DNA of 59,580 nucleotides from contig BRYA01000340.1 in NCBI GenBank assembly GCA_030267965.1, positions 1-59,580 of the forward strand, written 5' to 3'. Under the pieces are notes generated by a model, which ran no database searches, was not told the origin of the DNA, and was given only the letters and a program-made list of their open reading frames with translations. The stretch comes from Triparma columacea. Its lineage: Eukaryota > Sar > Bolidophyceae > Parmales > Triparmaceae. Made by a program: the position numbers and the translations under genes. Shown one piece after another: positions 50,345 through 55,745 of this stretch (positions are counted from its first letter, which is position 1; every line of letters starts with the position of its first letter).

Positions 50345-50783
50345 CTCTAAAATCAATTTGAACAATGTAGGCAAGAAAAGTGTCATAGAGTCTTTATTTC
50401 TTTTCAGAAGCGACATGCTCATGCTGCTCCCTGAGCAATTTTAGAGTAGCTCCCACCAAGTAGAGAAAAAATGAGGAAAGGCTTGGTGGGAGATTTGGGC
50501 AGAATTTGGCAAGAAAACTGCATAAACACTTCATTATACACTTTAGCTACGTTTTACAACTTACCTAACTCTTCACAATACAAACAACAATACTACTATC
50601 TACACCATATCCAAACAAATTATAGGCTTTAGCTAAAATTTGGTCCCCAACAATACTACATCGTCCAATCCCTTACTTTCAATCTCCTCCTCTCCATCTA
50701 AACATTCATCCCATACCCTAACTCAAGCGCTGTCAGTACTATTACTATCATCCTTCCCAAATACTTCCCAAATCCTTCCCAAA

Positions 50784-52253
50784 ATGCCCAAATCAGCAGT
50801 ATACTCTGGCGTAGAGAGATTCTATTTTGATCGTGAACTCACAGAGGTGATTTTTGCAAAGGGAGTGACGAAGATTGGCAAAGACGCCTTCCACGGTTGC
50901 TACTCCCTCGCAGCCATCACAATCCCGAACGGAGTGACAATGATTGGCATTAGCGCCTTTGAAAGCTGCGACTCCCTCGCAGCAATCACAATCCCGGACT
51001 CTGTGACATCGATTGGCCATAACGCCTTCTTGGGATGCTCCTCCCTCACGGCCATCACCATCCCGGACTCAGTGACGTGGATTTGCAATGGCGCCTTCAT
51101 GGAATGCTCCTCCCTCGCAGCCATCACAATCCCAGACTCAGTGACGATAATTGACAATTACGCCTTCAACAAATGCTCCTCCCTCACGGCCATCACAATC
51201 CCGGACTCAGTGACTATGATTGGCAATTACGCCTTCAGCAGATGCTCCTCCCTGGCAGCTATCACGATCCCGGACTCAGTTACAATGATTGGCAAAGACG
51301 CCTTCGATAGTTGCTCCGCCCTCGCAGCCATCACAATCTTGGACGGAGTGACGACGATTGGCGAAAGGGCCTTCCGCGGATGCTCCTCCCTTACTGCCAT
51401 CACAATCCCGGACACGGTGACGACTATTGCCTTTGGCGCCTTCAGGGAATGCTCCTCCCTCGCAGCCATCACAATCCCGGACTCTGTGACAACGATTGGC
51501 AGAAGCGCCTTCTTCGGATGCTCCTCCCTCACAGCCATCACAATCCCGGACTCTGTGACGGAGATTGGTGAGCGCGCCTTCTTGGGATGCTCCTCCCTCG
51601 CAGCCATCACAATCCCGTACTCAGTGACGAGGATTGGCATGTTAGTCTTCGAAGAATGCTCCTCCCTCACAGCCATCACCATCCCGGACTCAGTGACGTG
51701 GATTAGCGATGGCGCCTTCTACGGATGCTCATCCCTCACGGCCATCACCATCCCGGACTCAGTGAAGTCGATTGGCAATCTGCCTTCGACTTATGGCGCC
51801 TTCAGTGGATGCTCCTCCCTCACAGCCATCACTATCCCGGACTCGGTGACCACGCTTCATTATAGCGCCTTCAGTGGATGCACCTCCCTCGCAGCCATCA
51901 CAATCCCGGACTCAGTGATGACGATTGAAGATTACGCCTTTTACGGATGCGTAGCTCTGACTAGAATCAGTTTATCTCCTGCCGTCTCCGTTGGTAATGA
52001 CTGCTTTTCGAACTGCACTGCCCTTATCTCTGCCGCTGCCTCACAAAATATGTCGACTGTTGAGGACCTCCTCCATTCTAGGTGGCACCGCATACAAGCA
52101 CGCGTCACCGTTCTGGTATGCCTCAAGACACTCTTTACGGACCAGAAAAAGAGGAAGCGACAGGACGGAAGTGAAGCGCAAACACTTGGGGTAACTGCGA
52201 CACGCAAGAGGCTCCCGAAGGTTATGTGGAGAGTCATTCTGGAATTTCTGTAA
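50784..52253 (+). CDS. BspA-type leucine-rich repeat protein, copy 6 (17 repeats)
   Basis: Single exon, 489 residues from the ATG at 50784, chosen because MPKSAVYSG begins the sister copies; the frame is open upstream but that part is the duplicated promoter. Seventeen repeats, mostly of the DSVT subtype. Repeat 14 carries a six-residue insertion (IGNLPSTYGAF). C-terminal domain as in copies 4 and 5, ending VMWRVILEFL. Third and longest of the tandem units; its stop is 430 bases from the stop of the convergent kinase-RING-WD40 gene. Confidence 0.92.
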   Translation: MPKSAVYSGVERFYFDRELTEVIFAKGVTKIGKDAFHGCYSLAAITIPNGVTMIGISAFESCDSLAAITIPDSVTSIGHNAFLGCSSLTAITIPDSVTWICNGAFMECSSLAAITIPDSVTIIDNYAFNKCSSLTAITIPDSVTMIGNYAFSRCSSLAAITIPDSVTMIGKDAFDSCSALAAITILDGVTTIGERAFRGCSSLTAITIPDTVTTIAFGAFRECSSLAAITIPDSVTTIGRSAFFGCSSLTAITIPDSVTEIGERAFLGCSSLAAITIPYSVTRIGMLVFEECSSLTAITIPDSVTWISDGAFYGCSSLTAITIPDSVKSIGNLPSTYGAFSGCSSLTAITIPDSVTTLHYSAFSGCTSLAAITIPDSVMTIEDYAFYGCVALTRISLSPAVSVGNDCFSNCTALISAAASQNMSTVEDLLHSRWHRIQARVTVLVCLKTLFTDQKKRKRQDGSEAQTLGVTATRKRLPKVMWRVILEFL

Positions 52254-52682: not shown

Positions 52683-54420
52683 TTATGTGCTCCACACCTT
52701 CACCGTAAAATCCTCAGAGCCTGACACTACCACATCACCAGCAATCGCAACATCATTGACCCGATTCATGTGCCCCGTCAATGTCTTGATGCATAATCCT
52801 GTAGATATCTGCCAAACCTTCGCCGTCTCGTCACTAGAACCTGACACTACCACATCACCTGCAATCGCAATGCTCATAACACCACGCGTGTGCCCAGTCA
52901 ATGTCTTGATGCATGATCCTGTAGATATCTGCCACACCTTCACAGTCTTGTCATCAGAACCTGACACTATCACATCACCAGCAATCGCAACATCATTGAC
53001 CCAACTCGTGTGCCCAGTCAATGTCTTGATGCATGATCCTGTAGATATCTGCCACACCTTCACCGTATTGTCACTAGAACCTGACACTACCACATCACCA
53101 GCAGTCGAAACGCTAAAGACATCATTCGTGTGCCCCGTCAATGTCTTGATGCATGATCCTGTAGATATCTGCCAAACCTTCACCGTATAGTCCCAAGAAC
53201 CTGACACTACCAAATCACCAGCAATCGCAACACCAACGACAACATCGGTGTGCCCAGACAATGTGATGCATGATCCTGTAGATATCTGCCACACCTTCAC
53301 CGTATGGTCACTAGAACCTGACACTACCAAATCACCAGCAATCGCAACACCATTGACACAATCCGTGTGCCCCGTCAATGTCTTGATGCATGATCCTGTA
53401 GATATCTGCCACACCTTAACCGTCTTGTCATAAGAACCTGACACTACAACATCACCAGCATTCGCAACGTTATTGATACCATCCGTGTGCCCCGTCAATG
53501 TCTTGATGCAACTTAAGTTCCTCGCATCGAATGTTCTGCCACTTGGCACGAGCTGTCCGACATACCTCTCATCTGTGCTCCACACCTTCACCGTCTGGTC
53601 CCAAGAACCTGACACTACCAAATCACCAGCAATCGCAACGCTATAGACACTATTCGTGTGCCCCGTCAATGTCTTGATGCATGATCCTGTAGATATCTGC
53701 CACACCTTCACAGTCTTGTCATAAGAACCTGACACTACAACATCACCAGCAATCGCAACACTACTGACAAAATCAGTGTGTCCCGTCAATGTCTTGATGC
53801 ATGATCCTGTAGATATCTGCCACACCTTCACCGTCTTGTCAACAGAACCTGACACTACAACATCACCAGCAATCGCAACACCATAGACCCAATCCGCGTG
53901 CCCCGTCAATGTCTTGATGCATGATCCTGTAGATATCTGCCACACCTTCACAGTCTTGTCATAAGAACCTGACACTACAACATCACCAGCAATCGCAACG
54001 CTAACGACAGCTTCAGTGTGTCCCGTCAATGTCTTGATGCATGATCCTGTAGATATCTGCCACACCTTCACCGTTTTGTCATAAGAACCTGACACTACAA
54101 CATCACCAGCAATCGCAACACTACTGACCCAATGCGTGTGCCCCGTCAATGTCTTGATGCATGATCCTGTAGATATCTGCCAAACCTTCACCGTCACGTC
54201 CCTAGAACCTGACACTACCACATCACCAGCAATCGCAACGCTATTGACAGTACCCGTGTGCCCCGTCAATGTCTTGATGCATGATCCTGTAGATATCTGC
54301 CACACCTTAACCATCCTGTCACTAGAACCTGACACAACCACATCACCAGCAATCGCAACACCATAGACCTTATGTGTGTGCCCAGTCAATGTCTTGATGC
54401 AACTTAAGTTCCTCGCATCT
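52683..54420 (-). repeat. 120-bp near-identical WD40-coding repeats, 14 copies
   Basis: The segment GATCCTGTAGATATCTGCCA recurs at 120-base spacing (for example near 52794, 52914, 53034, 53154, and 53694, 53814, 53934, 54054), with identical flanks and a few variable codons. A longer unit around 53500-53590 holds the inter-propeller linker and matches 54400-54480. Such DNA-level sameness points to ongoing recombination or conversion among repeats. Confidence 0.9.
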
Positions 54421-55745
54421 AAAGTTCTGCCTCCGCGAGACACCGTTCCGCCACTTGGAACGAGCTGTTCGACATACATCTCATCTGGTGGCCTCACACT
54501 TTCGCCTCCTCCACCACCTCCCTCAATTGTCCTACCTGAAGTGTCGATGAAATCTCCGACCTCAAAGCTTTGAACTCTCTCCCTACAAATTGGGCACCTC
54601 GGACTCGCCCTCAGTATGAGCTCCCCAACGCAACCCTGGCAGCAAGCGGAATGCAGGCACGGTGAGAAACGAGTCCTGGGTGGCGCGTCCATGCAAACAA
54701 CGCACTACGTGAAGGGAAAGAGTATGAACGGGAGTAACGAGCTGGGTAAGCATAAACAATAAAGTTACATCTATCTACTCTCAGTACTCACCTCTCTGAC
54801 ACGCGGAGCAGGTGTCGGTGCTGGTGCTGGAGGAGGAGGAACAACGTCTGGCTCTGCCTCCCTGACTTCACCTAGGAGCCTCGCTATACAATCTTCCAAG
54901 CCCGGCCTATCCTCGATGTCCTCGGCCGTGCACTCCATCGCAAGGTCCCTCAAGAGCTTCTCCCTCGCATCGTCGAACCCAGCTCTAGCGTCCGCAGGAA
55001 CAACTGAACGCCTTGCCCTCCTGAAGAGATTCCTATCACGGGGTTGCTGCGAGCTGTCGAATGCCTGCAACCCAGTCAAAAGCTCAAGCAGCACTACCCC
55101 GAACGAGAATACGTCGCTCGCAGTGGTGAACTCTCTAGACTCAAGGTAATATGGATCTATGTAACCCCACGTTCCCATGCCTCCTGTCATGGTGACGCTG
55201 GAATCCGCCTCCCTCGCGATTCCCGCGTCGGATATCTTGGCGTACATGTCGGCGTCGAGCAAGATGTTAGCACTCGTTACGTCCCTGTGGAAGATGCTTG
55301 GCTTGTACCTTTCCCTATCAGGTTGGTGAAGATAATGTAAACCCAAGGCGACACCTACTGCGATGTTAATCCTCTCCGATGCCGTCAAAGGAAGGACGGT
55401 AGTAGAAGGGAGAAGCCTATCCGCCAAACTCCCACCTGGCATGTACCGGTATACCAAACAAAGAGGATTACCAAATTCGCTTGAAGATCCCAACAAGGGT
55501 ACAATGTTCTCATGCCTGCACATGCTCAGCACGCTGAGCTCCCTCCTGAACTCAGTATCGTCAACCTGCATCCCTTGGATGGTCCTGATTACCTTGATGG
55601 CTACTTGAGAACTTCCAATTCGGCCAAGGTAGACATCGCCAGACCCACCCCTTCCTATCTTGTTCTGGACGCTGAAAGAGTTGGTCATACTCAAAAGTGA
55701 GGCGTAGCTGTACTGCGCGGAGCCATCAACGGCCAGGGCGCTCAT
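52683..55745 (-). CDS. Kinase-RING-WD40 fusion protein (2 exons)
   Basis: Exons 55745-54792 and 54704-52683 join in phase 0 across an 87-base intron (GTGAGTACTG to TTCACGTAG), giving 991 residues. The splice completes the RING: exon 2 opens with CVVC, supplying the first two zinc ligands. Kinase (about 15-300): P-loop GRGGSGDVYLG, Lys51, Glu69, Tyr gatekeeper in LVYRYMPGGSL, HRDVTSAN at 153-160, DAG (not DFG) at 173-175, GTWGYIDP; this is the IRAK/Pelle/plant-receptor-kinase type. RING: C319, C322, C334, H336, C340, C343, C354, C357, C3HC4. Then 14 WD40 repeats of about 40 residues in two sets of seven, each set preceded by a YVxQLVPSG linker. Predicted action: a phosphorylating, ubiquitin-ligating sensor with paired propellers. 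No transmembrane segment. Without the splice one would see a kinase and a RING-less WD40 protein. Confidence 0.87.

Follow-up and report, generated by a model that had tools for sequence, protein, structure and literature searches.

The window analysed here, a stretch of 59,580 nucleotides from the alga Triparma columacea, carries on its minus strand (52683-55745) what is probably a member of a small, fast-diversifying receptor family, i.e., one spliced gene whose product would bind variable partners by paired propellers and signal by a kinase and a RING domain. The genes of this family have their exon/intron layout in common, retain the RING ligands and the motifs of a kinase, and show WD40 units in blocks of seven with an excess of amino-acid change at five positions per unit. 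The hypervariable WD40 positions, absent from the preliminary description of this DNA, are the real evidence for recognition.

Exon 1 (55745-54792, minus strand) is an open reading frame of 954 nt (318 codons) predicted, with Pfam, to encode an IRAK/Pelle-like kinase and a proline-rich linker. Exon 2 (54704-52683, minus strand) comprises 2,019 nt plus the stop codon (52683-52685), which ends the second WD40 block, and encodes the RING domain and 14 WD40 units. The predicted spliceosomal intron between them (54791-54705, minus strand, 87 nt, GTGAGT...ACGTAG) lies in phase 0, and its removal eliminates three in-frame stops and joins both exons to a product of 991 amino acids. The donor reads AG|GTGAGTACTG with 54792 as the last exon base, and behind the acceptor CACGTAG| exon 2 begins at 54704 with CVVC. 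The donor and acceptor, the kept frame and the loss of the intron stop, as originally described, are thus all present in the sequence. A Pfam search of the 991-residue product yields Pkinase, a C3HC4 RING and the 14 WD40 stretches that had been counted before.

An intron is found at the identical codon in three paralogues of the same genome, termed C216, C66 and C430 (78, 88 and 87 nt, respectively, compared to 87 nt in the window gene). The boundaries GTGAGT...ACGTAG are common to all four genes, indels fall inside the intron (1 nt in C66), and the flanking kinase codons are constrained. Furthermore, all four introns contain at the matching place a CTTAC or CTAAC motif, which we take to represent the yUnAy branch consensus, as well as a pyrimidine-rich stretch ahead of CACGTAG. 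A split into two separate genes, one for a 324-aa kinase whose frame runs to a stop in the intron and one for a WD40 protein with its start at 54692, is highly improbable: each frame does stand alone in the list of open reading frames, but 54692 is the sole listed in-frame ATG entry to exon 2, and a protein starting there would lose CVVC and with it the first two zinc-binding cysteines of the RING. Boundaries and codon position kept in four of four genes (introns of 78-88 nt) also speak against such a separation, as does the occurrence of kinase and RING as one protein in at least 12 relatives, one of which (P0066) comes from a transcript assembly. Because of the intron kept in the paralogues, the RING cysteines otherwise lost and the kinase-RING chains elsewhere, the interpretation as a single spliced kinase-RING-WD40 gene, already advanced in the preliminary description, can be regarded as close to settled on sequence grounds.

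The kinase domain (residues 25-287; 54885..55673, minus strand; PF00069, E 2.3e-42) was modelled by AF2 with a mean pLDDT of 80.6 and a pTM of 0.82. Its assignment as IRAK/Pelle-like is borne out by IRAK4 as best PDB match by sequence (1.4e-43; followed by BRI1, BAK1, Pto and BIK1) and, on the basis of the model, also by fold (TM 0.80), which places it nearest to the RLK/Pelle-IRAK group. In contrast to IRAK4/Pelle and to plant receptor-like cytoplasmic kinases (BIK1, Pto, BAK1), no death domain was found, the kinase is fused to a RING and propellers, and D-x-G replaces D-F-G. The ATP-site (VAIK) Lys, the helix-C Glu, the HRD Asp and the D-x-G Asp are present in all 15 heads of an alignment (A2); D-x-G is shared by all 15 rows, and the D-A-G of the window kinase by the paralogues. 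Residue 157 in the catalytic loop of the window copy (55275..55277, minus strand) is Thr (HRDVTSAN), in place of the Lys found in all 14 aligned relatives, including C216 and C66. Lys in HRDxKxxN is a mark of active Ser/Thr kinases. C430, which is outside the 15-head alignment, reads HRDVKSAN, yet its kinase exon is frameshifted. Since the catalytic-loop Lys is lost, phosphorylation by the window copy appears doubtful from its sequence, and the domain may act as a weak kinase or a scaffold. Of the proposal that one chain unites sensing, phosphorylation and ubiquitylation, the domains stand, whereas phosphorylation in the window copy is doubtful due to the change from Lys to Thr.

The C3HC4 RING extends from CVVC to CPIC (54585..54704, minus strand), starting right at the acceptor. 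It is recognized by Pfam as zf-C3HC4_3 (PF13920, E 1.3e-11; 44.6 bits at a cut-off of 27), in agreement with the RING first described, and its eight zinc ligands are all present and kept in all four paralogous genes. Matches to the PDB are weak (RINGs of TRIM56, MEX3C, MYLIP and cIAP, best E 2.5e-4), AF2 left the domain unfolded (pLDDT about 34), and dN/dS ranges from 0.22 to 0.56 in six pairs with few changes. A linker with a Gly run (54405..54584, minus strand), ending with DARNL before the first blade, connects the RING to the propellers.

WD40 block 1 (53574..54404, minus strand) consists of seven units of about 40 aa and is predicted to form a seven-bladed propeller; its AF2 model contains 28 strands with a pLDDT of mostly 85-96. 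Block 2 (52686..53513, minus strand), likewise of seven units, was modelled more weakly (pLDDT about 44-78). The two are connected by an inter-propeller linker (53514..53573, minus strand; DERYVGQLVPSGRTFDARNL) with related linkers in C216, C66 and C430, the block-parting linkers of the four genes being of the type DERYV.QLVPSG...DARNL. The blocks comprise 7+7 units in the window gene and in C216, 7+7+7 in C66 and 5+7 in C430. Including a headless relative (C739), nine of the ten blocks in five genes contain seven units, which is the usual blade number of propellers. The best fold match of exon 2 is the highly repetitive Nostoc propeller 2ymu (E 8.2e-44), which also has near-identical blades; those of 2ymu are described as identical in sequence (PMC9218822), whereas five positions per blade differ here.

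Kinase and RING queries were run against the genome to which the window belongs (37.85 Mb, 789 contigs) and retrieved C216, C66 and C430 as three close paralogues with kinase, intron, RING and WD40 units, the flanks and heads of which mark them as separate loci. The WD40 units are on average as similar between genes (nucleotide identity 0.851, 1,325 pairs) as within genes (0.856, 445 pairs), and 23 of 60 units have their nearest counterpart within their own gene (about 15 expected by chance from gene sizes). These values fit a putative exchange of repeats among the paralogues, possibly by unequal crossing-over or gene conversion. Repeat exchange among paralogues has likewise been described for fungal HET genes (PMC4986451).

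In C430 the kinase exon is frameshifted and the first block has only five units, which may point to decay in part of the family. That the family as a whole represents a decaying, mobile-like set of repeats devoid of present function could also be read from the lost Lys of the window copy, the headless C739 and a RING-less relative (C645). However, this is improbable, given the constrained kinase of the intact copies C325, C216 and C66 (dN/dS 0.18, 0.20 and 0.16 in three pairs), the eight RING ligands in four of four genes and open frames of up to 1,056 aa.

For the analysis of variability, the proteins encoded by exon 2 in the four genes were divided into 61 units (14, 14, 21 and 12), of which 60 were analysed, one with a deletion being dropped. 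Five positions per unit (11, 12, 14, 28 and 30) vary widely, while the other 30 of 35 are nearly fixed, and the combination of the five residues is distinct in every one of the 60 units. At the five positions pN/pS amounts to 2.75 (bootstrap 2.20-3.61), compared to 0.37 (0.30-0.46) at the other 30, and it exceeds 2 in each of the four genes (2.86, 2.49, 2.88 and 2.13). When neutral evolution was simulated 60 times at matching pS, the fifth-highest pN per codon did not exceed 0.32 (observed 0.47) and the single highest reached up to 0.58 (observed 0.70).

Since the five positions had been chosen by their variability, the test was repeated with published HET positions fixed beforehand. For HET-E and HET-D, sites with a high dN/dS are reported at positions 10, 11, 12, 14, 30, 32 and 39 (PMC12222747). 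With the register taken from P0295, a protein annotated as HET-E-1 (GH at 8-9, V13, D31, W37), and with the present units being two residues shorter before the D, these sites map to 10, 11, 12, 14, 28, 30 and 37. Here, pN/pS is 2.41 versus 0.43 elsewhere (59 units), and all five variable positions fall within the seven mapped ones, positions 10 and 37 not being variable. Two controls weaken this match, as 2.41 is also reached by 256 of 20,000 sets of seven randomly drawn positions and a mask shifted by two yields 2.34; such high values arise because pS, the denominator, is small and noisy. The variable positions of all seven modelled blades of block 1 belong to the d-a loop, to the b-c loop or to strand a, of which the second residue is concerned. 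In WD40 propellers, these two loops make up the top face. According to the model, the near-identical WD40 units carry their diversifying positions together at the same loops, a feature of HNWD/NLR sensors.

Near-identical repeats are reported to be prone to misassembly from short reads (PMC12222747), and the block of five in C430 might be such a case. The repeat arrays being in part assembly chimaeras, with unreal unit counts and order, is nevertheless the least probable of the readings considered here, as nine of ten blocks have exactly seven units and misassembly would not create codons with an excess of amino-acid change.

A less remote, though still unlikely, explanation is a housekeeping ligase of the KEG or COP1 kind with kinase, RING and WD40 domains, the propellers of which were recently amplified, so that repeat variety would be a by-product. 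Ligases combining RING with WD40 or RING with a kinase are known: KEG has the order RING-kinase-ankyrin-HERC2-like, and COP1 and TRAF7 are RING-WD40 ligases. The present protein resembles them in joining a RING ligase to a kinase or to WD40, but differs from KEG in its order of kinase, RING and WD40, and we know of no hypervariable units in KEG, COP1 or TRAF7. Constraint on the framework positions of the WD40 units would be compatible with a housekeeping role, and ongoing amplification is described to yield near-identical propellers in many lineages (PMC9218822). However, neutral drift would not be expected to raise pN/pS far beyond 1 at five positions while leaving it under 1 elsewhere, and rapid turnover is suggested by six related genes in which parts have changed or gone missing.

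If the gene does encode a diversifying receptor, the paired seven-bladed propellers would bind variable partner molecules via their variable loops, the five positions forming one binding face. Binding may place the partner within reach of the RING, which would ubiquitylate it, and may cluster the kinases, which would activate one another; in consequence, the partner could be removed, or a response of the defence or mating-type kind could follow. Candidate partners include proteins of parasites or viruses as well as the products of other strains, as with HET-C. One may speculate, tentatively and with rather less confidence than for the receptor family as such, that a diatom-related alga reinvented the HET-type sensor of fungi without a nucleotide-binding switch: molecules of non-self origin or from rival strains would be captured by the hypervariable paired propellers and then phosphorylated and ubiquitylated by the very chain that binds them, with WD40, DUF285 and ankyrin as interchangeable tails of one kinase-RING chassis.

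Hypervariable sensors with near-identical WD40 units are known mainly from fungi and bacteria, on NACHT/NB-ARC heads, and to our knowledge intracellular recognition receptors are little known in algae close to diatoms. If the proposed role holds true, the same sensor design would have arisen on a kinase-RING head in such an alga, providing a compact, testable case of one chain for sensing, phosphorylation and ubiquitylation and a natural repertoire of binding faces on propellers, with differences confined to five residues per blade.

For fungal HET genes, repeats that are nearly identical, diversifying selection at the variable sites and, in HET-E, a double propeller are described (PMC12222747). 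The present gene shares with HET-E, HET-D and HET-R of Podospora anserina near-identical WD40 units variable at the few same positions, diversifying selection, a putative exchange among paralogues and a predicted double propeller (PMC12222747; PMC4986451). Unlike the HET proteins, its head consists of kinase and RING (no HET and no NACHT match), its units are two residues shorter, and HET positions 10 and 39 are not among its variable ones. Pfam provided no NACHT or NB-ARC match in the kinase exon and in the linker-RING pieces, nor is either among the best 25 of the 32 families listed for the whole protein. The protein would function like fungal HNWD sensors, yet is not an NLR member, since no NACHT or NB-ARC match was obtained. 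The nearest case within the same wider group is the brown-algal ROCO-LRR family of candidate immune receptors, likewise ochrophyte repeat proteins with diversifying sites, for which shuffling of the repeats and diversifying selection at four sites in each of them are reported (PMC11378527). These are described as ROC-COR plus LRR proteins with one repeat per exon and alternative splicing (PMC11378527), whereas here all 14 WD40 units reside in one exon and the Pfam search gave no ROC-COR match.

The combination of domains is no one-off, in view of the three further genes, C645, C739 and a wider kinase-RING family. In C645 (locus L053:3340-6087, minus strand) a kinase 79% identical to that of the window is followed, without RING, by DUF285 repeats (E 5e-180). 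Variation among its 12 DUF285 units is concentrated at four positions (pN/pS 1.87 versus 0.24, the positions being chosen by variability). Among other ochrophytes, TrVE_jg3223 of Triparma verrucosa and a protein of Chrysoparadoxa australica also combine the kinase (35-42% identity to the window kinase in A2) with a C3HC4 RING, but have ankyrin where the window gene has WD40, behind kinase-RING in the former and ahead of the kinase in the latter. Because of the DUF285 repeats of C645 and the ankyrin of these two relatives, one kinase or kinase-RING chassis is seen, at the level of sequence, to carry different repeat tails. C739 (locus L059:1695-2720, minus strand) retains one block of seven WD40 units (six scored by Pfam) and looks as if kinase and RING had been excised. 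It also shares sequence of the ACAACNAACAGAAGCATGAGCGCC type just upstream of the start codon with other members.

Each of three protein searches scored about 7,990 candidates, those with the most words in common, and listed the best 120. By Pfam, at least 12 proteins from elsewhere combine kinase and RING in one chain among the matches listed. Motif patterns for kinase, RING and WD40 together were found in none of the 354 proteins listed and for RING plus kinase in 10, the pattern being imperfect in that it missed P0019 and P0026, in which both motifs are present by Pfam. Two metagenomic proteins (P0125 and P0126) are kinase-RING chains with an apparent start of a WD40 unit at their end; Pfam scored WD40 on P0126 with 12.5 bits (E 0.25, cut-off 27) and gave no match on P0125. 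This provides a hint, short of a finding, that the kinase-RING-WD40 order may exist in other plankton. Kinases combined with near-identical WD40 units also occur in bacterial proteins (e.g., P0261, P0265, P0266 and P0351) and in jakobid P0282, but no RING motif was found in them by motif scan. P0282 (Andalucia godoyi, named HET-E-1-like) carries eight near-identical WD40 units first and the kinase thereafter. A term search of open-licence literature retrieved no description of a kinase-RING-WD40 protein, which shows little, and the main text of the Parmales genome paper mentions neither WD40 nor ankyrin nor protein kinase by the same type of search.

A viral origin was considered and rejected: 37 IMG/VR loci contain distant kinase relatives (best segment identities 21-36%), the 37 kinase-motif frames of these loci show no RING or WD40 pattern, and megablast against 50,697 phage records gave no match.

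After those of C216, C66 and C430, the next RING matches in the genome are 46% identical to the RING of the window gene and belong to a near-identical pair (L054, C735; L055, C650) with a MYND-like Cys stretch, a RING and TPR-like repeats, MYND and TPR being assigned by eye. The neighbouring gene in the window (50640-52253, plus strand) is of the BspA-type LRR kind (PF13306, E 6.3e-131) and consists of near-identical 23-aa units, for which pN/pS is 1.74 at chosen variable positions and 0.43 elsewhere (15 units, one out of register).
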